Source: Microvirga rosea (GTDB taxonomy: Bacteria > Pseudomonadota > Alphaproteobacteria > Rhizobiales > Beijerinckiaceae). Taken from it: a DNA stretch of 64,000 nt. The notes under the pieces were generated by a model. The model saw only the letters and a program-made list of their open reading frames with translations, was not told where the DNA came from and made no database searches. The translations under genes and the position numbers were made by a program. Location of the stretch: NCBI RefSeq assembly GCF_020595095.1, contig NZ_JAJDOP010000004.1, forward strand, positions 1 through 64,000, in the 5' to 3' direction. Shown piece by piece: positions 8,829 through 44,832 of the stretch (within the stretch, counting starts at the first letter, position 1; every line of letters starts with the position of its first letter).

Positions 8829-10004
8829 ATGTTCCTGACCTTCTTTACCGAGCTGCGCGCCGCCAAGATCCCCGTTTCCTTGAGGGAATATCTCGGGTTT
8901 CTCGAAGCCCTCGAGCAGGATCTCGCCGACAAGAAGGTGGAGGAGTTCTACTACCTGTCCCGTGCCTGCCTGGTGAAGGATGAGCGCCATTTCGACCGGT
9001 TCGACCAGGTGTTCGGCCGTGTCTTCAAGGGACTAGAAACCCTCGGCCAGAGCGCCGAGGAGGTCGAGATCCCGGAGGAATGGCTCCGCAAGCTCGCGGA
9101 GCGCTATCTCACGGACGAGGAAAAACGCCAGATCGATGCTCTCGGGTGGGACAAGCTCTGGGAGACTCTTCAACAGCGCCTGCGGGAGCAGCGGGGCCGT
9201 CACCAGGGCGGCAACAAGTGGATCGGCACGGCCGGCACCTCTCCCTACGGCGCCTACGGTTACAATCCGGAAGGCATCCGCATCGGCCAGAAGGGGAACC
9301 GGAATTTCAGCGCCGTAAAGGTATGGGACAAGCGGGAGTTCAAGGATTTCGACGACGGCGTCGAACTCGGGGTCCGGAACATGCGCATCGCGCTGCGCCG
9401 CCTGCGCCGCTTCGCCCGCACGGGCGCCGTCGAGGAATTGGATCTCGATGAAACGATCCATGAGACCGCCCACAAGGGATACCTGGATGTGCGCCTGCGA
9501 CCGGAGCGGCGCAACGCCGTCAAGGTCCTGCTCTTCCTCGATGTCGGCGGGTCCATGGACTGGCATATCGAGATTGCGGAAGAACTCTTCTCGGCGGCGA
9601 GGCTGGAGTTCAAGCACTTCGAGCACTTCTACTTCCACAACTGCGTCTACGAGGCGGTGTGGAAGGAGAACCGACGCCGCTTCGACGAAAAGATCGCGAC
9701 CCTCGACATCATCCGAACCTATCCGTCCGATTATCGGGTCGTCTTTGTGGGCGATGCTTCCATGAGCCCCTATGAGATCAAGGTGGCGGGGGGCTCGGTG
9801 GAGCACTGGAACGAGGAGGCCGGACAGGTTTGGCTCGAACGGCTCCTTCACCACTTTCCCCGGGCGATCTGGCTGAATCCCGTGCCGCAATCGCGCTGGG
9901 GCTACACGCAATCCGTCACTCTCCTGCGCCAGATCTTTTCCGACCGCATGTATCCGCTGACTCTCGAAGGGATCGACCAGGCAATGCGGGAACTGGTACG
10001 CTGA
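8829..10004 (+). CDS. CoxE-like VWA-domain protein
   Basis: A 391-residue protein of the COG3552/CoxE group. The N-terminal helical half (FLTFFTELRAAKIPVSLREYL) is the family start; the VWA domain begins near residue 230 with FLDVGGSMDWH. The metal site is therefore D238-x-G-G-S, with Gly where the classical MIDAS has the first Ser, a form usual in this subgroup. MoxR/CoxE pairs mature metalloenzymes such as CO dehydrogenase or prepare other targets; no such target is encoded here. GGAG lies eight bases before the ATG. The matching MoxR gene is at 4524, on the opposite strand. Confidence 0.88.
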   Translation: MFLTFFTELRAAKIPVSLREYLGFLEALEQDLADKKVEEFYYLSRACLVKDERHFDRFDQVFGRVFKGLETLGQSAEEVEIPEEWLRKLAERYLTDEEKRQIDALGWDKLWETLQQRLREQRGRHQGGNKWIGTAGTSPYGAYGYNPEGIRIGQKGNRNFSAVKVWDKREFKDFDDGVELGVRNMRIALRRLRRFARTGAVEELDLDETIHETAHKGYLDVRLRPERRNAVKVLLFLDVGGSMDWHIEIAEELFSAARLEFKHFEHFYFHNCVYEAVWKENRRRFDEKIATLDIIRTYPSDYRVVFVGDASMSPYEIKVAGGSVEHWNEEAGQVWLERLLHHFPRAIWLNPVPQSRWGYTQSVTLLRQIFSDRMYPLTLEGIDQAMRELVR

Positions 10005-10007
10005 CCC

Positions 10008-10577
10008 ATGACGAAAATTTACGAGCATAGCCCCCGGCCTGTAGGCGGGCCGATCATCTTCACCCTCAAGGGCGACAAACTGGTGGTGGATTCCGGCCGC
10101 AAGGTCCGCGAGGTCCAGCTGGGCGCGGTGGAGGCCGTTCGCATCACCTATGAGCCGGGGCGCTTCGCCCAGAAGGTTTTTCGGACCCGCATCCGGATGA
10201 AGGACGGAAAAACCTTCACGTTCTCATCCCTCACCTGGCGGAGCCTCGTGGAAGCGAAGGCTCAGCCGGAAGAATACCGGAATTTCGCCAGGACATTGTT
10301 CGCGGCCATCGCCGACGCCAACCCGAATGCGCGGTTTCTCGCCGGAAAGAGCCGGCCGGTCTGGCTCGCGACGGTCGGGCTGACAAGCGTCTCGCTCCTC
10401 GGGATGGCCTATCTGATCTGGCGCGCTCTTCAGATGAACGTGACAGGCGTTGCCCTGCTCGGCGGATTGCTGGCTCTTGTCGGCATCTGGCAGCTTGAGC
10501 CGATGATCCGGCTCAACAAGCCGAGGCCGTTCAGGCCCGATGCTCCGCCGGAGGAGCTGCTCCCCTCCACGCCTTGA
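10008..10577 (+). CDS. unknown small membrane protein
   Basis: A 189-residue protein starting three bases after the VWA gene stop, so probably in the same transcript. The N-terminal 110 residues are a beta-rich, PH-like globular part (LVVDSGRKVREVQLGAVEAVRITY ... RIRMKDGKTFTFSSLTW), followed by two transmembrane segments (WLATVGLTSVSLLGMAYLIW and VALLGGLLALVGIW) and a Pro-rich tail. I do not recognise the family. Its position suggests a link to the CoxE/MoxR pair, but nothing in the sequence proves it. Confidence 0.75.
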   Translation: MTKIYEHSPRPVGGPIIFTLKGDKLVVDSGRKVREVQLGAVEAVRITYEPGRFAQKVFRTRIRMKDGKTFTFSSLTWRSLVEAKAQPEEYRNFARTLFAAIADANPNARFLAGKSRPVWLATVGLTSVSLLGMAYLIWRALQMNVTGVALLGGLLALVGIWQLEPMIRLNKPRPFRPDAPPEELLPSTP

Positions 10578-11521: not shown

Positions 11522-11836
11522 TGCAGACCTCTGACTGACGGCGCATACTTAATCCAGCGTCAGAAGAAAAACGAGAGACCTGAACGGGAACCCTGCCGTT
11601 TTCCTGCCGCATTTGGCATGGCGTTGCTGGTTACCGAGCCGTTAACGACGTTCGCAAGAGGCAGGGGACATCGGGTTTCCATCCCCCGGCCCCGCCGCTA
11701 GACTTACTTGGTAAATGGCAGGTTACCGAACGTAAGACTCAAAAAGGGTTTTGCGGCTCGGACGAAGTCGGCTCGTGTGCGTTATCGACGTATTCCGGCG
11801 GCTTCAACGACCATCTGTTGCGTCACGAGGGCGATC
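11522..11836. other. divergent intergenic region, ferredoxin / GPR-like gene
   Basis: These 315 bases separate the minus-strand ferredoxin from the large plus-strand coiled-coil gene and must hold both promoters. The plus-strand reading frame is open from 11708, but the 43 extra codons are basic and unlike the rest of the protein. A GAGGG ribosome site lies just before the ATG at 11837, so I treat 11708-11836 as leader. I see no terminator, operator repeat or small gene that I can support. Confidence 0.5.
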
Positions 11837-14800
11837 ATGGCGACCGAAAAGAAGAAGATTAAAGACCCGGCAGAGGCGGCTCTGTCCGCCGTCGAACAGG
11901 CATTGAACCTGGATGACGCGCTGCCGACGATGTCCTCATCATCGCCCCTGCCGGATCGGCGCGACGATACGGTCGCACAGGAGGAGCCCCGGCTTCCCGA
12001 TATCGACGATCATGATTTCACGAAGGGTCCGTTCGCCAGCCTCGACGAGGAGACGGACGACCATACCGACACGCGTCACGCCCGGTTCGACGAGGCGGCC
12101 CGCTCCGGTTTCATCGCCCCCGACCGGAATGCCGTGGCCAACGACGATCGCCAGAATGTCGGCGTGATGCTGCAGGCCCTCCAGGTTCGGCCTTCCCGTC
12201 GCGCCTATGTGATCGCGACGCTCGCCTCGCTGCTCTGGCTCGGCGGAGCAGCCTACCTGGTTTACTCGCAGGGCATCACGACACCGGAACAGCTTCTGGC
12301 GACCTACAGCGTAGCGCAGTTGACGGTGGCCGGCATGGTGCTGGCTGCGCCCGTCATTCTTTTCTTCATCGCCGCCATGCTCACCGTCAGGTCTCAGGAG
12401 ATGAAGCAGGTTGCCCGCGCCGTCGGCGAGGTCGCCGTGCGTCTCGCCCAGCCTGAAAGCTTCTCGACGGACGCCGTTCTCTCCGTGTCTCAGGCCGTCC
12501 GCCGCGAGGTCGCCGCCGTGGGCGACGGAGTCGAGCGCGCCCTTGCCCGGGCAGGCGAACTGGAAACCCTCGTGCGCAGCGAGATCTCGACCCTTGAGCG
12601 CGCCTATTCCGACAACGAGATCCGCATTCGCTCCTTGATCGATGAGCTGGTGACGCAGCGCGAAGCGATCGTGACCAACGCAGAGCGCGTCCGCAGCGCG
12701 ATTACCGGCTCGCATCAGAACCTGACCCAGGATCTCGATGCCGCGGCCGAGCGTGTGGTCTCTTCCGTGAACGGCGCTGGCGAGCGCGTCACCTCCTCGC
12801 TCCAGGAGCGCGGCGAACAAATCACCCAGGCCCTTGGACGCGCCGGCGAGCGGGTCGTCGAGGAAATGGCCAACCGGGGCGTCGAACTGGTCGATCGCCT
12901 GTCCGGCACCAGCGAGGACATCAAGTCCGGCATCGCCGATGTCGGCTCGCGCATCACGGGCGCTTTGGAAAACAAGGCCCAGGACATCACCGGTGCCTTC
13001 GAGCGCACCGGCGACGTGCTGACACGCCATCTCCAGGAAGGCGCGAGCCAGGTGACCCGCACCCTCGCGGAGACCGGCCGCGGTGTGATCGAGGCGTTGG
13101 CCCAACAGGGCAACGATGTCCGCGAAGCCTTCGAGCAGACCGCCCGGACCCTGGAAGACAGCTTTGCCCAACGGGGCTCGGAGATCACCGAGAAACTGGC
13201 TGCGACCGGCGGCGTCATCGCCGACGACATCTCGGCCCGCACGGCGGACATGCGTGATCAGATCGCCTCGGCGGGAACGGCCGTCGGCGAGGAGATCGTC
13301 CTGCGCGGCAGCACGGTCCGTGACGAGCTGGCGTCCACGGGCGCGTCCATCGTCGAGCAGCTCGCCACGCACGGCTCCGCCCTGCGGACCGAATTCGCCA
13401 CGACGGCGACGACCTTCCTCGAAGACATGGCCGCGCGGGGCCACACCTTGCGTGAGCAGCTGGCCTCCACCGGCACCGAAGTCGTGGATGAGATCGTCGT
13501 GCGCGGCAACGAGTTCCGCGAGCGTCTTGCGACGACGGCGGCGGATGTCACCCGCGAAATCTCCGTGCGCGGCGGCGAAGTCCGCGAGCAGCTCGAAGGG
13601 GCCGTACGGCTGGCCGACGAAGCCATCGGAACCCGCGTCGAGGATCTGGCCACCCGCCTCGAAGCGGCGAGCCTGCGCGTCAGCGAGACGGTCACCACCC
13701 ACGGCGATACGTTGGAGACGACCCTCACGGCAACCGGCGAGCGCATCGCGGCGCTCATGGGCGAGCGCGTGGGCGCCTTCCAGTCCGAATTCGAGAACCG
13801 GGGACAGGAATTTTCGGGAATCCTCAGCCGCCATGCGGAAGAGGCGCAGACACGCCTTGCGGGAACCGGCAAGGACATCGTCCTCGCCATCGCCACGCAG
13901 GGCGCTCGCGTGAACGAGGCTTTGAACCGCACCGCCGAGACGCTGGCGCAGACCGTCGACGTCCGTGGGCGCGAGATGGAGGAGACCCTTGGCTCCCGCC
14001 TCGCCGCCTTCGAGGATGTGATGAGCCGCGGCGGCGACGTGGCCGAACGCATTTCCCGCGATGTGGGCAGCCTGACGGAAACGATCAGCGGCCGCTTCGA
14101 GGAGATGGATCGTCTCATCACCGTCCAGGGCAGGACGCTGGCGGAGTCCTTCTCCGAGCGCGCCCGCGAAGCGACCGGCAGCATCGAAGCGCAGCTCACT
14201 GCTCTCGAAGAGCATGCGGCACGCCGGACGACGGAAATCACGGCCAATTTCGACACCATCGTCGAGCGTGTGGACCAGACCCTCAGCGCCCGCTCGTCGG
14301 CTCTCAACGAGGCGCTGGTGGTGCGCACGGGCGAGATGGCCCGCGTCATGGCCGAAGGTGGCCGCGACGTCGCCAACGCCCTGCAGGCCCGCATGGACGA
14401 AATCGGTCAGGCGATCGCCGCCCGCAGCGGCGCCATTGCCGAAACGCTCACGAGCAAGGCCGACCAGATCAGCGAGGCTCTCGGCAACCGTACCGCCGAG
14501 ATCAATGAGACCTTGGGCAGCCGCGCCGCCGAGATCAACGAAACCCTGGGCAGCCGTGCGATCGAGATCAACGAAACCCTCGGCACGCGTGCCGCGGAGA
14601 TCGCCACGACCCTCGACGAGCGGGTGTCCGTCTTCGAGGAGCGCGTCGTCAACCGCCTCTCCGGCGTGGCGGAAGCCATCGAGGACAAGGGCGAAGCCGT
14701 CCTCGGGTCGCTCGGCAACCGTATCGGGGAGATCCGCGAAATCTTCGACACGCAAGGCACCTCGCTGGTCGAGAGCCTTGGCCAGCACGGCAGCACGATC

Positions 14801-16618
14801 GGCGGCGAAATCGCCGCGATCAGCCAGACGGCTCTGCGCGATCTCGAAGAACGCAGCAACACGGTTATCAACAGCCTGCAGGACCGCAGCTCCTCCATGC
14901 TGGCGGCCTTCCAAGAGCGCAGCATGGAGCTGACCTCGTCCTACATGCAGTCGACGGAGGCCATGAGAGCCGCCATCGACGAAGGGGCCGAGCGCGCCGT
15001 CACCACCCTCGTGGATACCAACGAGCGGCTGCGTGGCGACCTGTCGGACGTCCTTGCCCGACTGCAGGATACGAACCGTCTCTTGCAGCAAGTGGCGGCC
15101 AGCGCCAGCGGCAATCTCGGCGCCGTCGAGGACGGCCTTGCCGGCCGCATTCAGCAGATCGAAGGCCTCCTTTCCGAAATCGCGACTCAGACCGGACGTG
15201 CATCCGATCAGGTGGCCGATCAGGTCGATGCGCTCCGGTCGGTCTCGTCCGGCGCGATCCAGCAGGCGACCGAACTCGCCCACGCCCTCGAGGAACGTGG
15301 CCGCTCTCTCACGGAGGGTGTCCGCGAACAGCTTCAGACCATCAACGATGCAGCCTCGGCTCTGGAACGTGCGGAAGCCCGCATCAACTCCGCCCTCTCC
15401 GGCCGCGAGCAGACCCTCAACGATCTGCTCGAGCGCATCAGCGCCCGCTCCGGAGAGCTCGAAACCGTTACAAGCTCCTTCTCCAGCTTGGTGGAGGGTT
15501 CGCTTCGGACGGCGGAGGAGCGCGCTCGTCAGGTCGGTTCGGTTCTCGCCGAAACCGCCCAGTCGACCACCCGGGTCATCGGCGAGCAGTTCGAGCGCAT
15601 TCGGACCTCCTCCGGTGCCGAAGGCGAGCGGACGGCTGCAGCCCTCCGGTCCGCTTACGAGCAGGCCGCCTCCGAAATGGCGGAGGCGCTCAACGCGGCC
15701 ACCGCGAAATTCCGCGACACCATGGGTGAGCTTCGCGGCATGACGGGCCAAATCCAGCGTGAGCTCGAGACCACCCGAGCCGAATTGCGCCGCGGCGTCG
15801 TCGAGCTGCCGCAGGAGACCCAGGAAACCACGGCTCAGATGCGCCGGGTCGTTGCGGACCAGATCAAGGCTCTGAATGAGCTGTCGGCCCTGGTTTCGCG
15901 CTCGACCCGCGTGGTCGATGCGGCTCCGGCCGCGCAGCCCCGCCGCGTCAACGAAGCCTCTGTCGCCGCAATGGCAGCAGCGGTGGAGCAGCGTCCGACA
16001 CCGGCTCCGGCCCCCACGCCGGCTCCGGCTCCGACTCCCACGGTTGCCCGCCAACCAGAACCGAAGCCTGCTCCGGCAGCGGCGGCGCCCCCGGCCCCAT
16101 CGGCCGCGCCTCAGGCTGCGCCCGCTCCTCGCCCGGCCCAGCCCACGGCGGAGCGCCCCGTCCAGCGGGAAGCCGGCCGTGGCGGCGGATGGCTCTCGGA
16201 CCTTCTCAACCGCGCGTCGCGGGATGACGAAGGGGCCGCTGCCCGTAACGGTCGCCCCGACCGCTCGCGGGTCAACAGCCTCGAATCCCTCGACTCGATC
16301 TCGGTTGATATCGCCCGGATGATCGATCACGACGCGGCGGTCGATTTGTGGGACCGTTATCGTCGGGGCGAGCACAACGTGTTCACCCGCAGGCTCTATA
16401 CCATTCAGGGCCAGCAGACCTTCGACGAGATCCGCCGCAAGTACCAGCGCGACCCGGAATTCAAGCAGACCGTGGACCGGTATGTGGAGGAGTTCGAGCG
16501 CCTGCTCGCCGAGGTCTCGCGGGATGACCGCGACTCCATGCTGACCAAGACCTACCTCACGTCCGAAACCGGAAAGGTCTACACGATGCTGGCCCATGCC
16601 AGCGGCCGGTTCGGCTAA
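11837..16618 (+). CDS. giant coiled-coil membrane protein, GPR/RgsE-like
   Basis: A 1593-residue protein. An acidic, disordered N-terminus (1-120) precedes two TM helices (about 123-144 and 161-183). A roughly 1150-residue apolipoprotein-like helical region follows, with repeating units such as 'G.RV...L..RG..I...L'. An Ala/Pro-rich linker (about 1360-1450) and a conserved C-terminal domain (about 1485-1593: DIARMIDHDAAVDLWDRYRRG, QQTFDEIRRKY) complete it. This matches the layout of Agrobacterium GPR (Growth Pole Ring) and Sinorhizobium RgsE, which organise polar growth in Rhizobiales. The assignment is by architecture and C-terminal character. It is shorter than Agrobacterium GPR (about 2100 aa), consistent with repeat loss. 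It is a lone gene closed by a strong terminator. Confidence 0.75.
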   Translation: MATEKKKIKDPAEAALSAVEQALNLDDALPTMSSSSPLPDRRDDTVAQEEPRLPDIDDHDFTKGPFASLDEETDDHTDTRHARFDEAARSGFIAPDRNAVANDDRQNVGVMLQALQVRPSRRAYVIATLASLLWLGGAAYLVYSQGITTPEQLLATYSVAQLTVAGMVLAAPVILFFIAAMLTVRSQEMKQVARAVGEVAVRLAQPESFSTDAVLSVSQAVRREVAAVGDGVERALARAGELETLVRSEISTLERAYSDNEIRIRSLIDELVTQREAIVTNAERVRSAITGSHQNLTQDLDAAAERVVSSVNGAGERVTSSLQERGEQITQALGRAGERVVEEMANRGVELVDRLSGTSEDIKSGIADVGSRITGALENKAQDITGAFERTGDVLTRHLQEGASQVTRTLAETGRGVIEALAQQGNDVREAFEQTARTLEDSFAQRGSEITEKLAATGGVIADDISARTADMRDQIASAGTAVGEEIVLRGSTVRDELASTGASIVEQLATHGSALRTEFATTATTFLEDMAARGHTLREQLASTGTEVVDEIVVRGNEFRERLATTAADVTREISVRGGEVREQLEGAVRLADEAIGTRVEDLATRLEAASLRVSETVTTHGDTLETTLTATGERIAALMGERVGAFQSEFENRGQEFSGILSRHAEEAQTRLAGTGKDIVLAIATQGARVNEALNRTAETLAQTVDVRGREMEETLGSRLAAFEDVMSRGGDVAERISRDVGSLTETISGRFEEMDRLITVQGRTLAESFSERAREATGSIEAQLTALEEHAARRTTEITANFDTIVERVDQTLSARSSALNEALVVRTGEMARVMAEGGRDVANALQARMDEIGQAIAARSGAIAETLTSKADQISEALGNRTAEINETLGSRAAEINETLGSRAIEINETLGTRAAEIATTLDERVSVFEERVVNRLSGVAEAIEDKGEAVLGSLGNRIGEIREIFDTQGTSLVESLGQHGSTIGGEIAAISQTALRDLEERSNTVINSLQDRSSSMLAAFQERSMELTSSYMQSTEAMRAAIDEGAERAVTTLVDTNERLRGDLSDVLARLQDTNRLLQQVAASASGNLGAVEDGLAGRIQQIEGLLSEIATQTGRASDQVADQVDALRSVSSGAIQQATELAHALEERGRSLTEGVREQLQTINDAASALERAEARINSALSGREQTLNDLLERISARSGELETVTSSFSSLVEGSLRTAEERARQVGSVLAETAQSTTRVIGEQFERIRTSSGAEGERTAAALRSAYEQAASEMAEALNAATAKFRDTMGELRGMTGQIQRELETTRAELRRGVVELPQETQETTAQMRRVVADQIKALNELSALVSRSTRVVDAAPAAQPRRVNEASVAAMAAAVEQRPTPAPAPTPAPAPTPTVARQPEPKPAPAAAAPPAPSAAPQAAPAPRPAQPTAERPVQREAGRGGGWLSDLLNRASRDDEGAAARNGRPDRSRVNSLESLDSISVDIARMIDHDAAVDLWDRYRRGEHNVFTRRLYTIQGQQTFDEIRRKYQRDPEFKQTVDRYVEEFERLLAEVSRDDRDSMLTKTYLTSETGKVYTMLAHASGRFG
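14489..14620 (+). repeat. 33-bp tandem repeat (4 units) inside the GPR-like gene
   Basis: Four consecutive 33-base units encode 11-residue (hendecad) repeats: RTAEINETLGS, RAAEINETLGS, RAIEINETLGT, RAAEIATTLDE. Units 2 and 3 are nearly identical at DNA level; unit 4 is diverged. Eleven-residue periodicity fits apolipoprotein-like amphipathic helices or right-handed coiled coils, and the recent identity suggests unit gain or loss within the coding frame. Confidence 0.85.
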
Positions 16619-16643
16619 CCGGCGCTTCCAGTTAGGATTGATG

Positions 16644-16672
16644 AAAACGCGGCCGATCCGGCCGCGTTTTTT
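16644..16672 (+). terminator. rho-independent terminator after the GPR-like gene
   Basis: A perfect 12-bp stem (AAAACGCGGCCG / CGGCCGCGTTTT) with a 3-base ATC loop, ending in a T run (16667-16672). It lies 25 bases after the stop codon. The A-tract on the left arm means it could also work for the opposite strand, but no minus-strand gene ends here. Confidence 0.92.
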
Positions 16673-16791
16673 ATTGCCTGGACGGCCACCGAACCTGCCT
16701 TCCATGACCTCGGACGTAATCGACCCGGCCCTTGGGCTCCCGCAAGGTGGTCTCACCCAGTCGTTGGGATCGTCCATGAAGGAGACTGAAA

Positions 16792-35958: not shown

Positions 35959-36879
35959 TTGCTCTCCTTTATCATGCGCCGTTTTCTGACGGCCATTCCG
36001 ACCTTACTGGTCATCGTGACGATCTCGTTCTTCCTGATCCGGCTGGCTCCCGGCGGCCCGTTCGACCTCGAGCGCCCCCTCGAAGCCAAGGTGATGGAAA
36101 ACCTCAACCGGATCTATCAGCTCGATAAGCCGCTGATTCAGCAGTACTGGCTGTACCTCTCCGCCGTCATGCACGGGGATTTCGGGCCCTCCTTCATCCT
36201 GCGCGATTTCTCGGTTGGTGAGCTCTTCGCCCGGGGCCTGCCCATTTCGATGACCCTCGGCGCCCTGGCGATCACGCTCGCGATCCTGGTGGGCGGCACC
36301 CTCGGAACGATCGCGGCCCTGCGTCAGAACAGCCTTGCCGATTATATCGTGACCGGCCTCGGCGCCATGGGCCTGACGATCCCGAACTTCGTGGTGGCGC
36401 CGGTTCTGCAGATCGTTCTCGGTCTTGCCCTTGCCTGGCTTCCCGTGGCCGGTTGGGCCGACGGGTCCCCGCGCAACCTCGTCATGCCGGTAATCGTGCT
36501 GGCCCTTCCGCAGATCGCGGTCGTGGCCCGCATGACCCGCGCGGCGATGATCGAGAACCTGCGCTCGAACCACATCCGGACCCTGCGCTCCCTCGGGCTG
36601 CCCTGGCACGTAATCGTAACCCATGCCCTGCGCGGCGCCTCGCTGCCCGTGATCTCCTATCTCGGGCCGGCGGCCGCGGCCCTGCTGACCGGTTCCGTCG
36701 TGGTCGAGACGATCTTCGGCCTTCCCGGCATCGGACGCTACTTCGTCGAGGGCGCGCTGAACCGCGACTACACGCTCGTCATGGGGACGGTCGTGGTCGT
36801 GGCCGTGTTCGTGCTCATCTTCAACCTCGTGGTCGACATTCTCTACGCCGTCGTCGATCCGCGCATTCGTTTTGATTGA
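35959..36879 (+). CDS. OppB-like ABC permease
   Basis: Start is a TTG (MLSFIMRRF) eight bases after AGGAG; the first ATG, 15 bases later, is too far from that site. The 306-residue permease has six TM segments, the OppB start FLTAIPTLLVIVTISFFLIRLAPGGPF and the EAA loop (RAAMIENLRSNHIRTLRSLGLPW). The size equals E. coli OppB. Second gene of the transporter operon. Confidence 0.9.
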   Translation: MLSFIMRRFLTAIPTLLVIVTISFFLIRLAPGGPFDLERPLEAKVMENLNRIYQLDKPLIQQYWLYLSAVMHGDFGPSFILRDFSVGELFARGLPISMTLGALAITLAILVGGTLGTIAALRQNSLADYIVTGLGAMGLTIPNFVVAPVLQIVLGLALAWLPVAGWADGSPRNLVMPVIVLALPQIAVVARMTRAAMIENLRSNHIRTLRSLGLPWHVIVTHALRGASLPVISYLGPAAAALLTGSVVVETIFGLPGIGRYFVEGALNRDYTLVMGTVVVVAVFVLIFNLVVDILYAVVDPRIRFD

Positions 36880-36887
36880 GGGCCGTC

Positions 36888-38024
36888 ATGGCTGAAGGCG
36901 CCGCACTTCCCATCGAAACCCTTGCCGATCCCGTATCCGGACGTTCCCTCTGGGTCGAAGCCAGGGGCCGTCTGCTCAACAACAAGGCCGCCGTGGCCAG
37001 CATCGTGCTGCTGGGGTTCATCGCCATCGCCTGCATCTTCGGGCCGCTCGTCACCGGGCACCCGTTCGATCAGGTCTATCCCGACTACGTGAAGGTTCCG
37101 GCAAGCCTGGAAGCCTATCCGAAGGCGGACCAGATCACGCCGCAGATCGAGCGCATCGGCGCCCGCGTCCGGGGCAAGCCCGAGAACATCCAGGTGAAGG
37201 GAGACAACGTCACCGTGACCCTGGTGGGGCAGCGGCCCATCGACGAGCGGCTTCTCGCCTATTTCGAGCGCTCCGACATGTTCGGCGCCGCCAAGATCGC
37301 CGAGAAGACGGATGAAGGCAAACGCATCGTCGTCGACGTGCCTTTGAAGAAAAAGTACTTCCTCTTCGGGACCGACACGAACGGCCGCGATCTTCTCACC
37401 CGCACGATGAAGGCCGGTCAGATCTCGCTGGCCATCGGTCTCCTCGCCACCTTCGTGGCCATCCTGATCGGCGTCGCCTACGGCGCGACCTCCGGCTATC
37501 TCGGAGGCCGGGCCGACCTGATCATGATGCGCGTGGTGGACGTGATCTACTCGCTCCCATTCATCTTCTTCGTGATCATGCTGGTCGTCTTCTTCGGCCG
37601 CAACTTCATCCTGATGTTCATCGCCGTCGGCGCGGTGGAATGGCTGGACATGGCGCGCATCGTCCGTGGCCAGACCCTTTCCATCAAACGCCAGGAATAC
37701 GTGCAGGCGGCCGAAGCGCTGGGGGTCGAGACGAAGGGCATCATCCGCCGTCACGTCATCCCGAACACCCTCGGTCCCGTGGTCGTCTACATGACCCTTC
37801 TGGTTCCGAAGGTGATCCTCCTGGAGAGCTTCCTGTCCTTCCTGGGACTTGGCGTTCAGGAGCCCAACACCAGCCTCGGGGTGCTCATCTCGGAAGGCGC
37901 GAAGAACATCCAGGGCGCCACCTGGATGTTGCTCTATCCGTCCCTGACCCTGATCGCGATCCTGTTCTGCCTCAACTTCATCGGTGACGGCTTGCGCGAC
38001 GCCCTCGACCCGAAGGATCGTTAA
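36888..38024 (+). CDS. OppC-like ABC permease with enlarged periplasmic loop
   Basis: A 378-residue permease. TM1 (KAAVASIVLLGFIAIACIFGPLV) is followed by about 110 hydrophilic residues (HPFDQVYPDYVKV ... KKKYFLFGTDTNGRDLL) before TM2, much more than in E. coli OppC (302 aa). The EAA loop is EYVQAAEALGVETKGIIRRHVIPN. The extra domain probably extends into the periplasm and contacts the binding protein. ATG 36888 is preferred over a TTG 12 bases earlier. Confidence 0.9.
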   Translation: MAEGAALPIETLADPVSGRSLWVEARGRLLNNKAAVASIVLLGFIAIACIFGPLVTGHPFDQVYPDYVKVPASLEAYPKADQITPQIERIGARVRGKPENIQVKGDNVTVTLVGQRPIDERLLAYFERSDMFGAAKIAEKTDEGKRIVVDVPLKKKYFLFGTDTNGRDLLTRTMKAGQISLAIGLLATFVAILIGVAYGATSGYLGGRADLIMMRVVDVIYSLPFIFFVIMLVVFFGRNFILMFIAVGAVEWLDMARIVRGQTLSIKRQEYVQAAEALGVETKGIIRRHVIPNTLGPVVVYMTLLVPKVILLESFLSFLGLGVQEPNTSLGVLISEGAKNIQGATWMLLYPSLTLIAILFCLNFIGDGLRDALDPKDR

Positions 38025-38025
38025 G

Positions 38026-39660
38026 ATGGCTGATCCCGTTCTGACAGTTCGAAACCTGAATGTTCGCTTCCGGACCGGAGACGGCATTCTTCACGCCGTC
38101 AAGGGCATCGATCTCGACGTGAATGCGGGCGAGACCGTCGCCATCGTCGGAGAATCGGGTTCGGGCAAGAGCCAGACCATGATGTCCGTCATGGGCCTCC
38201 TCGCCTCGAACGGCTGGGCCGAAGGGTCCGTAAAGTACAGGGGCGACGAGCTCGTCGGGCTTTCTCCCGACAAGCTCAACCGGTACCGTGGCTCCAAGCT
38301 GACGATGATCTTTCAGGAGCCGATGACGTCGCTCGATCCGCTCTACCGGATCGGCGAACAGCTGGCCCTGCCGCTCACGACGCATGGCGGACTGAGCAAG
38401 GCGGAGGCCCGTCGTCGCGCCATCGAGCTTCTCGAACTCGTGCGGATCCCCGATCCGCAACGGCGCATCGACTCCTACCCCCATGAAATGTCCGGCGGCC
38501 AGCGCCAGCGCGTCATGATCGCCATGGCCCTCGCCAACAATCCGGACGTCCTGATCGCCGACGAGCCGACGACCGCTCTCGACGTGACGGTCCAGGCCCG
38601 GATCCTGGAGCTTCTGGCCGACCTGCAGAAGCGGCTGGGCATGTCGATCGTCTTCATCACCCATGACCTCGGCATCGTCCGCCGCTTCGCCGACCGCACT
38701 TATGTGATGAAGCGCGGCGAGGTCGTCGAAAGCGGCGCCACGTCGGACATCTTCGCGGCTCCGAAGCATCCCTATACGCAGATGCTGATCGATGCGGAGC
38801 CGAGGGGCACGAAGGAGCCTGCTCCGGCCGGGTCTCCCCTCGTTCTCGACGCAAGGGACGTGAAGGTTTCCTTCGTTCTGAAATCCAACCTGTTCGGCCA
38901 GCCCACCCACGTGCTCAACGCGGTTGACGGCGTGAGCCTCTCCGTACGTGCCGGCGAGACCGTCGGCGTGGTCGGCGAGTCGGGCTCCGGCAAGTCCACC
39001 CTGGGGCGTGCCGTGCTGCGGTTGCAGTCGGCCAGCGGCATGGTGCGGTTCGAGGACCGCAATCTGATGCCGCTCGACCGCGCGGGCATGCGTCCCTTGC
39101 GCCGTCACCTGCAGCTGGTGTTCCAGGATCCTTTCGGCTCCCTTTCCCCGCGCATGACGGCGGGCGAAATCGTGACCGAAGGACTTTTGGTCCACGAGCC
39201 CCGTATCTCCCGTCGGGATCGGGACCGGCGCGCCGCGCAGGCTTTCGAGGAGGTGCGGCTGGAGCCGGGGTGGCGCAACCGCTTCCCCCACGAATTCTCG
39301 GGCGGGCAGCGCCAGCGCATTGCCATCGCCCGCGCCATGATCCTGCATCCGAAGCTCGTCGTTCTGGACGAACCGACATCCGCTCTCGACCGGTCGGTGC
39401 AGAAGGAAATCGTCGAACTCCTGCGTGACCTGCAGAAGGCCCATGGCCTCGCCTACGTGTTCATCAGCCACGACCTCGCGGTCGTCCGGGCGCTTTCGGA
39501 CGAAATCATGGTCATGAAGAACGGCAAGGTGGTCGAGCGGGGCTCCGCGGAGGAAATCTTCGAACGGCCTCGGGAGGATTATACCCGCGATCTCATCGCG
39601 GCCGCCTTCCTGAAGGAACGGGGTGTCGCCGCGCCTACCCCCGCGACACTGGCTTCCTGA
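38026..39660 (+). CDS. OppD-OppF fused ABC ATPase
   Basis: One 544-residue protein carrying two ABC modules, as in GsiA or YejF. Module 1 (about 5-255) has [18 protein letters not shown] and [10 protein letters not shown]; module 2 (about 285-535) has [18 protein letters not shown] and [10 protein letters not shown]. Each ends with the OppD/F-type switch region THD / SHD. In Opp systems the two ATPases are usually separate genes; fusion guarantees 1:1 stoichiometry. Last gene of the operon, two bases after the OppC-like gene. Confidence 0.92.
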
Positions 39661-39675
39661 TATCGGAACCGGGAC

Positions 39676-39706
39676 GCCATGGCGCGAATTGAATCTGCGC
39701 CATGGC
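39676..39706. repeat. perfect 10-bp inverted repeat over the start of the LigD-like gene
   Basis: GCCATGGCGC (39676-39685) pairs with GCGCCATGGC (39697-39706) across an 11-base loop. The ATG of the LigD-like gene (39702) lies in the right arm, and no Shine-Dalgarno is visible upstream. In RNA the start would be in a GC-rich hairpin. Alternatively it is the T-less terminator of the Opp operon. Confidence 0.7.
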
Positions 39707-41291
39707 AAAGCTCGCACCCTATCGCGCCAAGCGCGACTTCACCAAGACCTCCGAGCCGAAGGGAGGATCTTCCCGCCGGCACGGTTCGTCCTTCGTCATC
39801 CAGAAGCACGATGCTTCCCGCCTGCACTACGATTTCCGCCTGGAGATGGACGGGGTCCTGAAGAGCTGGGCGGTCGCCAAGGGACCAAGCTTCGTTCCCG
39901 GGGACAAGCGCCTTGCGGTGGAGGTCGAGGATCATCCCCTCGCCTACGGCGATTTCGAAGGCACGATCCCGGAAGGTCAGTATGGCGGCGGCACCGTCAT
40001 GCTGTGGGATCGCGGAACCTGGGAGCCGGAAGGCGACCCGGCGGAAGGCTATGCCAAAGGTCGCCTCAGTTTCCGCCTCGACGGTCAAAAGCTGCACGGC
40101 ACATGGCATCTGGTCCGCATGGCGAAGCGTCCGCGGGAAAAACAGCCTTCCTGGCTCCTGATCAAGGCCGATGACGGGTTCGCACGCAGTGCCGACGATC
40201 CCGACATCCTGGAGGAGGCTCCCTCATCCGTCAAAACGGGCCGCTCCCTTGACGAGATTGCCGGCAATAAGACGAAGGCCTCCGAGACAAAGTCTTCCAA
40301 GACAAAACCCGCCGCGACAAAATCCACCTCCGCCGCGAAGCCGGCGCCACGGGCGAAGGCCGCATCGAAGAAAGTCGCTGCGAAGGACACCGACCGGGTC
40401 GAAGTGGCCGGCGTCTCCCTGTCCCATCCCGACCGCGTATTGTGGGATGAACAGGGGGTCACGAAGCAGCAACTGGCTGAATTCTATGTCGGCATCTCAG
40501 AATGGTTGCTGCCCCACCTGGTGGATCGGCCGCTGACGCTGATCCGCTGCCCTTCGGGAGCACAGAAGAGCTGTTTCGTCCAACGCCACGCATGGCAGGG
40601 CCTATCGGATTTCATCGAGCGCCACAGCGTTCGCGACGACGGTGGCACGATGGAAATCTTGAGTGTGCATGACATTCAGGGTGTCGTAGCGCTGGTCCAG
40701 GCAGGCGTTCTCGAGATGCATGTGTGGAGCGCCACCTTGGCCGATCTGGAGCGCCCCGACCGGATCATTTTCGATCTCGATCCGGGCGAAGGCGTCGGCT
40801 GGCCCCTCGTGATCGAAGGGGCTCGCGCGATCCGGGACCGGTTGAAAGGTCTGGGCCTCGAGAGCTTCGTCAAGACGACCGGCGGCAAGGGTCTGCATGT
40901 GGTGGCGCCATTGACCCCGAAGGCATCCTGGAAAGACGCGATGACGTTCACCCGCGATCTTGCGCAGGCCATGGCGGCGGACGAACCCAAACGCTACACG
41001 ACCACATCCGTGAAGCAGGAACGTGAAGGCAGGATCTTCATCGATTACCTTCGCAACAATCGCGAAGCGACTGCGGTCGCGCCCTATTCGACCCGATCGC
41101 GCCCGGGTGCTCCCGTCTCGACGCCCTTGGCCTGGGAGGAACTTTCCGCGAAAATCAAGCCCAATGGCTTTACCGTGCAGAACCTGGGCAAACGCCTCGC
41201 GGCACTCCGTCGGGATCCTTGGGCCGATATGGCCAAAGTCGACCAGATCCTCCCCGCTCCCACACGGAAGCGACGCTCACCCAGGCGGTAG
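39702..41291 (+). CDS. LigD-like phosphoesterase-polymerase protein lacking the ligase domain
   Basis: A 529-residue protein. Residues about 10-160 are a LigD-type 3'-phosphoesterase with all metal and phosphate residues (H36, H42, D44, R46, H78, Y82). SVKTGRSLDEIA (near 178-190) is the segment that in LigD precedes the ligase domain. A Lys/Ser/Ala-rich linker (about 190-230) follows instead, and then a full archaeo-eukaryotic-primase-type polymerase (about 232-520; SHPDRVLW, FDLDPGEG with D-x-D, TTGGKGLHVVAPL, GRIFIDYLRN). The ligase motif KxDG is absent. It may trim and fill ends for another ligase in Ku-dependent repair. No ku gene is in the window. Confidence 0.88.
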   Translation: MAKLAPYRAKRDFTKTSEPKGGSSRRHGSSFVIQKHDASRLHYDFRLEMDGVLKSWAVAKGPSFVPGDKRLAVEVEDHPLAYGDFEGTIPEGQYGGGTVMLWDRGTWEPEGDPAEGYAKGRLSFRLDGQKLHGTWHLVRMAKRPREKQPSWLLIKADDGFARSADDPDILEEAPSSVKTGRSLDEIAGNKTKASETKSSKTKPAATKSTSAAKPAPRAKAASKKVAAKDTDRVEVAGVSLSHPDRVLWDEQGVTKQQLAEFYVGISEWLLPHLVDRPLTLIRCPSGAQKSCFVQRHAWQGLSDFIERHSVRDDGGTMEILSVHDIQGVVALVQAGVLEMHVWSATLADLERPDRIIFDLDPGEGVGWPLVIEGARAIRDRLKGLGLESFVKTTGGKGLHVVAPLTPKASWKDAMTFTRDLAQAMAADEPKRYTTTSVKQEREGRIFIDYLRNNREATAVAPYSTRSRPGAPVSTPLAWEELSAKIKPNGFTVQNLGKRLAALRRDPWADMAKVDQILPAPTRKRRSPRR

Positions 41292-41296
41292 AAGGG

Positions 41297-41932
41297 TCAT
41301 ATCAGGGGAGCCTTGAGCCCTTCGGCCTCGAACGTTTTTTGCACGGCCGGGCGCGCAAGCGCCCGTTCGGCCAAGGCCAGAAGGTTCGGCAGCGTCCGTG
41401 GCGGACGGGGCATGCCGCGGCCCCAGCGGATCAGCATCAGCAGGAACAAGTCTGCGGCGGAGAATTGATCGCCGAGAAGCCAGGTCTTGTCGCCCAGTTG
41501 AGCGGAGATCACGTCGAACATGTGATTCAGCCGCCGCTCGGCCGCGTGCTTGACGCTCGGGACAGCCGCCTCATCGTCCGCGTGTTCATAGGGATAGAAC
41601 CAGGCGCGGTATTCCGCCTGCGGCGTGTTCGAAAGGTGGATCATCCACTTGTAGAATTGGGCCCGCTCCTTGGTGCCGACAGGCGGCGCCAATCCGGCCT
41701 GCGGAAACTTGTCGACCAGATGAAGCGCGATGGCGGCAGTCTCGAACAGCACCAGGTCGTCATCGACCAGAACCGGGATGCGGCCGTTGGGATTGAGCCG
41801 GAGATACTCCGCGCTCTTCTGCGCGTTCTCCTCCCTGTTCACGAGGCGCAGCTCGAACTCCACCCCGATTTCCCGCAACATCATGTGAGGAAGAAGGCTG
41901 GCATTGCCGGGAAAGTAGTAGAGCGCGAGCAT
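41297..41932 (-). CDS. glutathione S-transferase family protein
   Basis: Start MLALYYFPGNASLLPHMML at 41932 (211 residues). The N-terminal thioredoxin-fold domain ends with the glutathione-contacting VLFETAAIALHLVD ('ES/ET' motif), and the C-terminal helical domain has GDQFSAADLFLLMLIRW. It resembles beta/theta-type bacterial GSTs in which Ser or Cys near residue 10 activates glutathione; here Ser12 is the candidate. The substrate is unknown. Convergent with the LigD-like gene. Confidence 0.85.
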   Translation of the reverse strand: MLALYYFPGNASLLPHMMLREIGVEFELRLVNREENAQKSAEYLRLNPNGRIPVLVDDDLVLFETAAIALHLVDKFPQAGLAPPVGTKERAQFYKWMIHLSNTPQAEYRAWFYPYEHADDEAAVPSVKHAAERRLNHMFDVISAQLGDKTWLLGDQFSAADLFLLMLIRWGRGMPRPPRTLPNLLALAERALARPAVQKTFEAEGLKAPLI

Positions 41933-42076
41933 CGAATTCGCCTTCCGTTCAAAGCTTGACCGCAAGCCTGATTAGTTTCCTTCCACGGGAGAGTAAAGCT
42001 GCAACCTTTCCATTCCGTTCGCCTGCTCTAAGGTCGTGTTCTGTCGCCGGTGCCTTTTGCAGGAGAAACAGACAAC

Positions 42077-42901
42077 ATGTCGGATCGGACTCATGCCTTG
42101 GTCGAAAAATACCGGGTCAAGCCGGGAAAGACCGTAAAGCTCAAGGATTTCGATCCGCGCGACAAGAGCGGTTTGGGCGATGAGGATCTCACCAAGGCGG
42201 AGACGGCGGAACTGGCGCGCGATATCGATGCGCTGCAGGACCGTCTCTACGCCGAAGGGGCGCGGTCTCTGCTCGTCATTCTCCAAGGAACCGATACGGC
42301 CGGAAAGGACGGGACGATCCGCGGCGTCTTCAATGAGACGGGACCGATCGGCGTCTCGGTGACGGCGTTTCGGGCGCCGACGGAAGCCGAACTGGCTCAC
42401 GACTACCTCTGGCGCGCCCATCTGGCGGCTCCCAAACGCGGGATGATCGGCATTTTCAACAGGTCTCACTATGAGGACGTGCTGGTCGGAAAAGTGCGTG
42501 AGCTCGCGACCAAGAAAGCCATCGAGCAGCGCTACGAGCAGATCAATGCCTTTGAAAGGATGTTGACCGACAACGGCACCGTCATCCTCAAATTCATGCT
42601 CCACATCTCGAAGGACGAGCAAAAGGAGCGTCTGCAGGAACGCCTCGACGATCCCAAGAAGCACTGGAAGTTCAACCCCGGCGATCTGGAGGACCGGAAG
42701 CGGTGGGACGATTTCCAGGAGGCCTACGAGATCATGCTCAACCGTTGCTCGACCGACTGGGCGCCCTGGTACGTGATTCCGGCCGACCGGAAATGGGTCC
42801 GCAACGCGATCATCGCCCGTATCGTCAAGGCGACGCTTGAGGACATGGACCCGAAATACCCGAAACAATCGTGGGATCCCAAGGATTTTACAGTCGACTG
42901 A
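42077..42901 (+). CDS. ppk2: polyphosphate kinase 2 (PPK2, class III-like)
   Basis: A 274-residue PPK2 with the N-terminal YRVKPGKTVKLKDFDP of the polyphosphate:nucleotide phosphotransferase subgroup (TIGR03709). Walker A is GTDTAGKDG (71-79), the lid region AAPKRGMIGIFNRSHYEDVLV, and a Walker B-like LKFMLHIS. It transfers phosphate between polyphosphate and AMP/ADP. AGGAG lies ten bases before the ATG at 42077; an in-frame start 27 bases earlier is less likely. The gene stands alone, 50 bases past the divergent GST. Full family length. Confidence 0.9.
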   Translation: MSDRTHALVEKYRVKPGKTVKLKDFDPRDKSGLGDEDLTKAETAELARDIDALQDRLYAEGARSLLVILQGTDTAGKDGTIRGVFNETGPIGVSVTAFRAPTEAELAHDYLWRAHLAAPKRGMIGIFNRSHYEDVLVGKVRELATKKAIEQRYEQINAFERMLTDNGTVILKFMLHISKDEQKERLQERLDDPKKHWKFNPGDLEDRKRWDDFQEAYEIMLNRCSTDWAPWYVIPADRKWVRNAIIARIVKATLEDMDPKYPKQSWDPKDFTVD

Positions 42902-42993
42902 TCCCAAGGGATGACTGGCCTTGGCCCCTCCTGGCCGTCAAGCTTGGCTTGAGGGGCTTGCCGAGAAGCCCCTTGAGCGCGACAATATCCCGT

Positions 42994-43830
42994 ATGAAAA
43001 GCATTCTCGTTCCCATTGAAGATCACGGCGTGGCAGAGCCTGTTCTTGAAACAGCTCTGCATCTCGGCACCATGTTCGACAGCTACATGGAAGGCGTGGC
43101 GATCACTCCCGATTATCCGGTGGTTCTGCCCGTCGATATCGCCATCGGCGTTCCCTCGCCCATCACCCCCGAGAACCGGGCCGAGATGGCGAAATCCTGC
43201 CGGGAGCGCTTCGAGGCTTTCATGATCAAGAAGCAGATCCCTCGGGCAGCATCGGCCCTGGCCGGTCTCAGCTTCGGCTGGCGCCAGGACGGGCTGATGG
43301 AAGATGCCTTCCTCGGGGCCTATGGACGCGTTTTCGACATCACCGTCGTGGGCCGCCCGGACGGTGTCGACGGCCACACCCGTCTTTCAACCGTCGAAGC
43401 CGCTCTTTTCGAAACCGGACGGCCGGTTCTGATCGCACCGCCACAGCCCCCTTCGACGTTCGGGAACACCATCGTCATCGCCTGGAACCGCAGCACGGAA
43501 ACGGCCCGGGCCGTCATGGGCGCCATGCCGCTTCTCGCCAGGGCCCGCCGCACCATCGTGCTCGAACTCGAGGATTGGGGCGTCCCGGGCCCCTCGGGAT
43601 CCGAACTGGTTCGCTCTCTTCGCATGCACAACATCAACGCGGATGCCATCGTGGCCGCCGATCCCTCGAACCGCCCCGGTGAAGCGATCCTGTCGGAAGC
43701 GGCGGCCTTGAACTGCGATCTCCTGGTGAAGGGGGCTTATACCCAGAGCCGCCTGCGGCAGATGTTCTTCGGCGGAGCAACGAGCCACATCCTCGGAAAC
43801 ACGACCATCCCGGTCCTGATGGCCCATTAG
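42994..43830 (+). CDS. tandem universal stress protein
   Basis: A 278-residue protein with two Usp domains: first MKSILVPIEDHGVAEPVLETALHLG (1-145), second NTIVIAWNRSTETARAVMGAMPLL (about 155-278) ending GGATSHILGNTTIPVLMAH. Only the second keeps a recognisable ATP-site pattern (KGAYTQSRLRQMFFGGATSH). No clear ribosome site precedes the ATG. A GC-rich stem-loop (AGGGGCTT...AAGCCCCT, 42952-42973) lies in the leader, just after ppk2, and might terminate that gene. Confidence 0.85.
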   Translation: MKSILVPIEDHGVAEPVLETALHLGTMFDSYMEGVAITPDYPVVLPVDIAIGVPSPITPENRAEMAKSCRERFEAFMIKKQIPRAASALAGLSFGWRQDGLMEDAFLGAYGRVFDITVVGRPDGVDGHTRLSTVEAALFETGRPVLIAPPQPPSTFGNTIVIAWNRSTETARAVMGAMPLLARARRTIVLELEDWGVPGPSGSELVRSLRMHNINADAIVAADPSNRPGEAILSEAAALNCDLLVKGAYTQSRLRQMFFGGATSHILGNTTIPVLMAH

Positions 43831-43902: not shown

Positions 43903-44832
43903 ATGACGGAAAATCGCATGACGGCGAATACCGCACTTGTCCTCGATGAACGCTTCCGGCGGCTCGTGATCTCGTCCGCCCGGCTCGAAAAGCTCGCGGA
44001 GGGATTCCGCTGGGCGGAGGGACCGGCTTATTTCCCGGCCGGTCGCTATCTCGTTTGGAGCGATATCCCCAACGACCGGATGATGCGGCTCGATGAGACC
44101 TCCGGCCATGTCAGCGTGTTCCGGCAACCGGCGGCCTATTCCAACGGCAACACCGTCGACCGGCAGGGCCGCCTCGTCACCTGCGAGCACGGGAATCGCC
44201 GCGTGACCCGCACGGAGCATGACGGCTCGATCACTGTCCTCGCGAGTCATTACGGCGGCAAGCGCCTCAACAGCCCCAACGATGTGGTCGTGAGATCCGA
44301 TGGCTCGATCTGGTTCAGCGATCCCGCCTACGGAATCGATTCAGATTACGAAGGGCATAAGGCGGAGAGCGAGATCGGTGCCTGCCATGTCTATCGCGTC
44401 GATCCGCAGACCGGCGCCGTCACGATCGCCGCAGACGATTTCGTGCGCCCGAACGGGATCGCTTTCTCGCCGGATGAAAAGCGCCTCTACGTCGCCGATA
44501 CGGGCGCAACCCATGTGGAGGACGGGCCACGCCATATCCGGGTCTTCGACGTCGATCGGGACGGCAAGCTGACCGACGGGCGCGTCTTTGCCGTCTGCAC
44601 GGCCGGGCTCTTCGACGGTTTTCGGCTCGATGAAGCGGGACGGATCTGGACCAGCGCCGGCGATGGGGTCCATTGCTACGATCCTGACGGAACATTGATC
44701 GGCAAGATCCTGGTGCCCGAGGTCGTCGCGAACGTGGCGTTCGGCGGCCCGAAGCGAAACCGCCTCTATATCTGCGCAACCACGTCGCTTTACGCGATCA
44801 TGCTTCCGGTCAACGGCGCCAAGACCGTTTGA
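43903..44832 (+). CDS. SMP-30/gluconolactonase-family lactonase
   Basis: A 309-residue six-bladed beta-propeller. Metal ligands are visible: Glu in WAEGPAYF, Asn in RLNSPNDVVV, Asn in RPNGIAFS and Asp in LFDGFRLDEAG. These are the ligands of gluconolactonase and SMP-30. It hydrolyses a sugar lactone, but the sugar is not evident and no sugar genes lie nearby. Two near-repeated starts exist (MTENR-, MTANT-, 15 bases apart); either may be used. Confidence 0.88.
   Translation: MTENRMTANTALVLDERFRRLVISSARLEKLAEGFRWAEGPAYFPAGRYLVWSDIPNDRMMRLDETSGHVSVFRQPAAYSNGNTVDRQGRLVTCEHGNRRVTRTEHDGSITVLASHYGGKRLNSPNDVVVRSDGSIWFSDPAYGIDSDYEGHKAESEIGACHVYRVDPQTGAVTIAADDFVRPNGIAFSPDEKRLYVADTGATHVEDGPRHIRVFDVDRDGKLTDGRVFAVCTAGLFDGFRLDEAGRIWTSAGDGVHCYDPDGTLIGKILVPEVVANVAFGGPKRNRLYICATTSLYAIMLPVNGAKTV

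Follow-up and report, generated by a model that had tools for sequence, protein, structure and literature searches.

A LigD-like gene in which the ligase domain is missing

Within the window (the whole 64,000-nucleotide stretch of Microvirga rosea DNA analysed here), a group of ABC transporter genes is followed by a gene encoding a LigD 3'-phosphoesterase (PE) domain and a LigD primase-polymerase (POL) domain, joined by a variable linker rich in lysine, alanine, and serine (Table 1). The ligase (LIG) domain of LigD is absent. Such two-domain proteins are called PE-POL below.

Table 1. Genes, protein domains, and ligases discussed in the text. Positions refer to the window unless a contig or another locus is named.
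Feature	Position	Strand	Remarks
ABC transporter permease, oppB-like	35959..36879	+	Synteny marker; name from appearance
ABC transporter permease, oppC-like	36876..38024	+	Synteny marker; name from appearance
ABC transporter ATP-binding protein, oppDF/YejF-like	37984..39660	+	Synteny marker
PE-POL protein gene (LigD without ligase domain)	39702..41291	+	529 aa, ATG start
PE domain, residues 1-160	39702..40181	+	Pfam, alignment of 40 PE-POL proteins
Ala/Lys/Ser/Pro-rich variable linker, residues 188-233	40263..40400	+	Site of the ligase domain in three-domain orthologues
LigD-type POL domain, residues 238-510	40413..41231	+	Pfam, alignment
Glutathione S-transferase (GST)-like gene	41297..41965	-	Synteny marker
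PPK2 family polyphosphate kinase	42050..42901	+	Synteny marker
Universal-stress-protein-like gene	42871..43830	+	Synteny marker; name from appearance, no NCBIfam match
SMP-30/gluconolactonase-like gene	43903..44832	+	Synteny marker; name from appearance, no NCBIfam match
Standalone LigD-type ligase, 331 aa	contig 33, about 92113-93105 (L137, 8114-9109)		Same contig, about 51 kb downstream of PE-POL
Standalone LigD-type ligase, 365 aa	L002, 470-1567		Other contig

Pfam places LigD_N (E 3.9e-45) over residues 34-139 and LigD_Prim-Pol (E 1.1e-91) over residues 254-507, and up to E 1 it finds no ligase family in the ORF. The NCBIfam models TIGR02777 and TIGR02778 both score above their cut-offs, while those of full-length LigD fall below (TIGR02776, 364 vs 373 bits; PRK05972, 676 vs 895), and a motif scan of the whole protein finds no KxDG. 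The initial annotation, made from the sequence alone, had described a phosphoesterase and a polymerase without a ligase and had suggested a comparison with LigD domain models; it was right about the architecture and the missing ligase lysine, and also about details, in that the active-site residues of PE (H36, H42, D44, R46, H78, Y82) carry exactly the numbers it gave and the POL motifs FDLDP and IFIDYLRN begin at residues 357 and 445. Between the SVKTGRSLDEIA segment and POL there are only about 46 residues (188-233), of low complexity. Since a typical ligase domain has about 300, this stretch is far too short to be one.

The closest solved structures, judged by sequence, both come from Pseudomonas aeruginosa LigD: 2lj6 for PE (E 6e-63) and 2fao for POL (E 1.9e-61 to 9e-61). 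POL matches Prim-PolC (6sa0) more weakly (E 1.7e-39). The six PE residues named above align with residues that PMC8656161 describes for P. aeruginosa LigD, namely His42, His48, Asp50, Arg52, His84, and Tyr88.

The surroundings of the gene are stable, with the transporter ATPase gene upstream and PPK2 downstream in 39/39 relatives of the genus. Exceptions among the other markers are an unmatched GST in G017, an unmatched SMP30-like gene in G015, and three genomes in which the stretch or contig ends (G029, G046, and G034). No repair gene occurs among the neighbors examined (transporter, GST, and PPK2), so there is no guilt by association to draw upon. Elsewhere in the window, two frames of 1636 and 1612 aa overlap on opposite strands (11708-16618, plus; 11939-16777, minus). 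The plus-strand frame has no NCBIfam match at E 1e-10, and the real gene may therefore be the one on the minus strand.

Ku and ligases in the host genome

The host genome (5.0 Mb in 38 contigs, called 100% complete, with the window on contig 33) contains no other relative of this kind. A search for ku and for a separate ATP-dependent ligase had been proposed at the outset. A profile search of the 38 contigs with PF02735 gave no Ku candidate at all; with the same model 20 genomes of the genus exceed the cut-off, 18 of them with a Ku match at E below 1e-43. Three ATP-dependent ligases are present, one a LigB-type "cisplatin damage response" ligase and two that are standalone ligases of the LigD type (Table 1). 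Both of the latter carry the KxDGYR motif and score well above the NHEJ-ligase cut-off of TIGR02779 (324 and 328 bits vs 227.75). The two are 79% alike, in a genome without detected Ku. Beside a standalone ligase of the host lies a gene that we take to be DUF72-like; it was seen only in the host when stretches of about 1.5 kb beside the other copies were scanned.

Ligases like these (63-79% identical) are intact in 10 of the 48 genomes of the genus, the host included, and broken in G020. LigB-type matches in G022, G023, and G030 lie below the NHEJ cut-off. One might suppose the standalone ligases to be the fragment lost from the PE-POL locus, but they group apart from the ligase domains found at that locus in G010 and G044 (see below), and the idea is unsupported.

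Architectures and Ku across the genus

The genus, which contains named Microvirga species, was surveyed in 48 genomes, of which 42 reach 90% completeness or more with contamination of 5% or less. (Microvirga aerophila and Microvirga sp. 3-52 are the relatives that match over the full length, at 75%, among the best 80 of 593 in a large genome collection.) A PE domain is present in all 48, and an intact PE-POL of 517-557 aa occurs, at one locus, in 40, counting the host. G010 and G044 alone have a three-domain LigD (PE-LIG-POL) at this locus, the form for which the initial annotation had advised looking in close relatives. In G043, PE and POL are two ORFs overlapping by ATGA, a natural fission of PE-POL (L175, about 9845-10447, minus strand). 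G024 retains a POL-only gene with intact catalytic motifs (L242, 7770-8800). No PE or POL match lies between the flanking genes of G003, G004, and G008, where the gaps measure 535, 34, and 539 bases, and G018 is rearranged, PPK2 alone of the gene group being found on the stretch read.

A full LigD at the locus in related strains had been named beforehand as a sign of recent deletion or assembly error. The two genomes just mentioned do possess one, to the letter, but the conclusion does not follow: the short form is common to 40 of 48 species, and both a recent deletion and an error of assembly can be rejected.

Ku exceeds its cut-off in 20 of the 48 genomes and does not in 28, among which G029, with a Ku fragment below the cut-off, is scored as Ku-minus. 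Of the genomes with PE-POL, 27/40 are Ku-minus and 13/40 Ku-plus. By classes assigned by hand from the profile-search results, 23 of those 27 also lack any LigD-type ligase; a standalone one is present in the other four (the host, G015, G031, and G039).

Ku-linked LigDs of about 860 aa are encoded at other loci in the genus. The five genomes that have lost PE from the PE-POL locus (three empty, one POL-only, one rearranged) all carry Ku together with a full-length LigD, as though the latter were able to take over the task. The association of PE loss with Ku (5/20 Ku-plus vs 0/28 Ku-minus genomes; Fisher p 0.009) is only suggestive, since when relatedness is counted there are three independent pairs and the median p is 1.

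Constraint on PE and POL

Fifteen alignment columns were checked, which we take to represent the catalytic residues of PE and POL together with some supporting ones, and all 15 are invariant across the 40 aligned PE-POL proteins of the genus. In PE, the six active-site residues and D12, E18, and E76 are the same in 40/40, as are D358, D360, and D448 in POL; T254, K255, and R441 of POL are invariant in a 36-row alignment. Mean conservation over the 40 proteins is 0.92 in PE and 0.87 in POL, compared with 0.57 in the linker.

The ratio dN/dS is about 0.14 for PE-POL (Nei-Gojobori, 381 pairs with dS below 1). Its median is 0.146 when both members of a pair are Ku-minus (145 pairs) and 0.136 when both are Ku-plus (50 pairs), figures drawn from pairs that are not independent. 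Their similarity gives no sign of relaxed constraint in the absence of Ku. Selection had been invoked from the start to explain an intact frame lacking a domain, and the survey agrees: the two-domain form is whole in most of the genus, its catalytic residues do not vary, and dN/dS is low, with only two of the 48 genomes having the three-domain form at the locus.

How often was the ligase domain lost?

In a quick tree of POL sequences (139 rows), the PE-POL proteins of the genus and the proteins of G010, G044, and G043 make up one group (SH-aLRT 100), within which G010 splits first (support 93, not starred). A quick LIG tree (105 rows) pairs the ligase domain of G010 with that of G044 (99) and separates both from the LigDs linked to Ku in the genus and also from the standalone LigD-type ligases, which form a clade of their own. 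The 529-aa protein is an orthologue of three-domain LigD (PE-LIG-POL) from which the ligase domain has disappeared, in a lineage often without Ku.

The number of losses depends on G044, which is nested among relatives that have no ligase domain. When the tree is built from seven flanking proteins (47 rows), it becomes the sister of the PE-POL genome G030 (97/88), in a group of four that includes the window (100/100), and the AU test rejects a single clade of ligase-less rows (p 4.9e-11, or 1.7e-4 with the 43 rows of a tree that also includes PE and POL). If only losses are allowed, the best tree needs four of them; three suffice if G044 is placed outside the window, G023, and G030 taken together, a topology that the test does not reject (p 0.12). 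LIG was either lost three or four times or lost once and then regained in G044. Nothing marks the ligase domain of G044 as a recent import: its identity to that of G010 is 65.6%, compared with 73.7% for PE and 63.6% for POL, and the GC content is even over all three. An older regain is possible. On the tree of flanking genes, Ku needs at least 12 changes and the loss of PE from the locus three (G018 is absent from this tree).

PE-POL beyond the genus

Outside the genus, 274 genomes of the family were searched. Among the matches listed, PE is found in 152, Ku in 149, and both in 141, so PE without Ku amounts to 11/152 there, compared with 28/48 in the genus (Fisher p 6e-13, uncorrected for relatedness). 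In three of those 11 the frame is a full-length LigD (these genomes are 82-84% complete), in five PE stands alone, and in three there is a fragment; none contains a frame of the size of PE-POL. The standalone PE frames (L256-L260), about 176-231 aa long, come from five family genomes without detected Ku. In G226 and G238, PE frames of a length similar to PE-POL belong to a PE-LIG gene with a separate POL gene adjacent to it, beside Ku (L221, 5314-7790; L222, 6174-8596), which is another way of splitting LigD.

Among the best 80 of 593 relatives, at least six single PE-POL frames without LIG come from outside the genus: two from Pontibacter and one each from a Bacteroidetes MAG, Pedobacter deserti, the bin FW021_48, and Pararoseomonas. 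Neither Ku nor a LigD-type ligase over the cut-off was found in four of these six genomes, whose completeness is not stated (both Pontibacter, the Bacteroidetes MAG, and Pararoseomonas). The remaining two have both: in Pedobacter deserti PE-POL is accompanied by Ku and a separate LigD-type ligase, and in FW021_48 the three lie side by side (L030, 9914-13289). PE-POL can therefore also belong to a split end-joining set. The protein of Pararoseomonas and the five others fall on two POL branches, both long, far from the group of the genus, and the PE-POL form probably has more than one origin.

Ku lies inside the fetched stretch at 83 of 100 loci in a mixed set (the best 80 of 593 relatives and 20 others). 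A Marinimicrobia MAG divides PE and LIG-POL between two frames (L084, 8049-10939).

A putative role in end healing and gap filling

In bacterial non-homologous end joining, a process dependent on Ku, LigD is usually seen as the half that carries out the work. What, then, does a LigD without LIG do in a cell without detectable Ku? Two facts, that Ku is lacking and that LigD-type ligases occur patchily, point to end healing and gap filling as the task that is conserved, one in which other ligases would do the sealing. We consider it somewhat probable, weighing the genomic evidence as a whole, that PE-POL is a Ku-independent enzyme that heals 3' ends and fills short gaps, its nicks being closed by such ligases. 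Most likely it would work on single-strand breaks and short gaps, without Ku. The PE domain would remove a 3'-phosphate or trailing 3'-ribonucleosides to give a 3'-OH, and the tethered POL would hold the 5'-phosphate side and insert a nucleotide or a few. The nick would then be sealed by another ligase, candidates being the housekeeping LigA, the LigB-type enzyme, or, in the host, perhaps a standalone LigD-type ligase.

We infer these steps from what has been reported of such domains in LigD and in Prim-PolC. The PE domain of LigD heals 3' ends, taking off 3'-phosphates and 3'-ribonucleosides (PMC8656161), and the LigC/Prim-PolC pair fills gaps of 1-3 nt in excision repair (PMC5663958). PMC4770248 cites a role of LigD in P. 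putida that does not depend on Ku, and it also places the 5'-dRP lyase of LigD in the ligase domain. That domain is the missing one, and classical base excision repair would therefore require another lyase.

The stability of the PE-POL locus while Ku changes at least 12 times counts in favor of gap filling. Counting against it are the resemblance of POL, which has no Loop 3, to the POL of end-joining LigD, the two standalone LigD-type ligases of the host, and the presence of Ku in two of the six outside genomes with PE-POL and 13 of the 40 within the genus. A POL of the LigD type without Loop 3 could have gaps, paired overhangs, or both as its substrates. It may be, then, that two 3' overhangs are paired and filled by POL, trimmed by PE, and sealed by a housekeeping ligase, in a microhomology end joining free of Ku. 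LigD-type POL reportedly helps to bring ends into synapsis (PMC5663958); the present data, however, do not separate gap filling from end bridging, the end-joining systems described in the accessible literature rely on Ku, and we judge this course rather improbable. It is also unlikely, if still credible, that LigD has been divided into two proteins, PE-POL processing double-strand ends and a standalone LigD-type ligase sealing them, here without Ku. Both host ligases pass the NHEJ-ligase profile and carry the KxDGYR motif, and two of the six outside genomes combine PE-POL with Ku and a separate LigD-type ligase, one of them in adjoining genes. Yet intact standalone ligases occur in only 10/48 genomes of the genus while PE-POL occurs in 40, they form a clade apart from the ligase domain of the G010/G044 locus, those of the host do not adjoin PE-POL, and no Ku was found there.

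Could PE-POL instead be an accessory end-processor for Ku and full LigD, kept for a time after Ku has gone? Ku comes and goes in the genus and is present in 13 of the 40 PE-POL genomes, but constraint looks equal in Ku-minus pairs and the locus is empty or reduced in some Ku-plus genomes only, never in Ku-minus ones, so that this explanation is very doubtful. Scarcely to be entertained is a decaying, functionless remnant or an artefact of assembly: one domain is indeed gone, and a full LigD occupies the locus in 2/48 genomes, but a protein found in 40/48 species with invariant catalytic residues and dN/dS near 0.14 already contradicts it. The initial annotation had offered two guesses, a polymerase for another repair route and an end-processing enzyme in need of a ligase in trans. 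The first fits better; the second, taken as end joining with a partner ligase, fits less well, given the lack of Ku in the host and the scarcity of intact standalone ligases in the genus.

Relation to known systems

The protein has PE and POL in the same order as the PE-LIG-POL enzyme of the P. aeruginosa type, with the same catalytic residues, and is linked to it by the three-domain orthologues at the locus in G010 and G044. The His-His-Asp metal site of PE and the POL domain are both there; unlike that enzyme, however, the protein has no KxDG ligase, and its host has no detected Ku partner. Mycobacterial Prim-PolC, associated with LigC, is likewise a LigD-like polymerase of short gaps with no ligase in the same chain (PMC5663958). 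To judge from the accessible text of that article, the window protein differs in having a fused PE, no C-terminal Loop 3, and no adjoining ligase gene: its alignment to 5op0/6sa0 ends at chain position 293/298, before Loop 3, and the protein itself ends about 12 residues later, and its neighbors are the transporter, GST, and PPK2 rather than a LigC operon. The LigD of Bacillus subtilis (LIG-POL) is also a two-domain variant, but it is the reverse case, keeping the ligase and lacking PE (PMC8656161).

In split NHEJ sets the activities of LigD are similarly spread over more than one protein; compare the two genes of G043. Methanocella paludicola has such a set, in separate genes. FW021_48 has another, with PE-POL like that of the host, but also with Ku and an adjoining ligase gene, and the host has neither. 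The survey of Sharda et al. 2020 (PMC7719229) has a class for genomes of this kind, though its accessible text neither treats the class as a repair system nor traces its origin. A literature search whose coverage excluded most subscription journals gave no description of a PE-POL that is Ku-free and spread across a genus.

Hints of Ku-independent roles for LigD, in mutagenesis and excision repair, exist for other species (PMC4770248). That Microvirga has turned LigD into a Ku-independent enzyme of end healing and gap filling, through parallel losses of the ligase three or four times within the genus, is a proposal that we make tentatively, as a possibility short of a likelihood. If it is true, nature has performed a separation-of-function experiment in which selection keeps PE and POL, but not ligation, once Ku is gone, and the PE-POLs of Pontibacter and Pararoseomonas, on distant POL branches and with no detected Ku, would be further cases.

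The preservation of PE and POL almost unchanged across most of the genus suggests a repair job of their own. With Ku and ligase missing in many species, PE and POL under constraint, and G044 at hand as a comparator, the genus offers a clean system in which to study the roles of the two domains. It also carries a warning, that genomes of this kind should not be scored simply as lacking the pathway.
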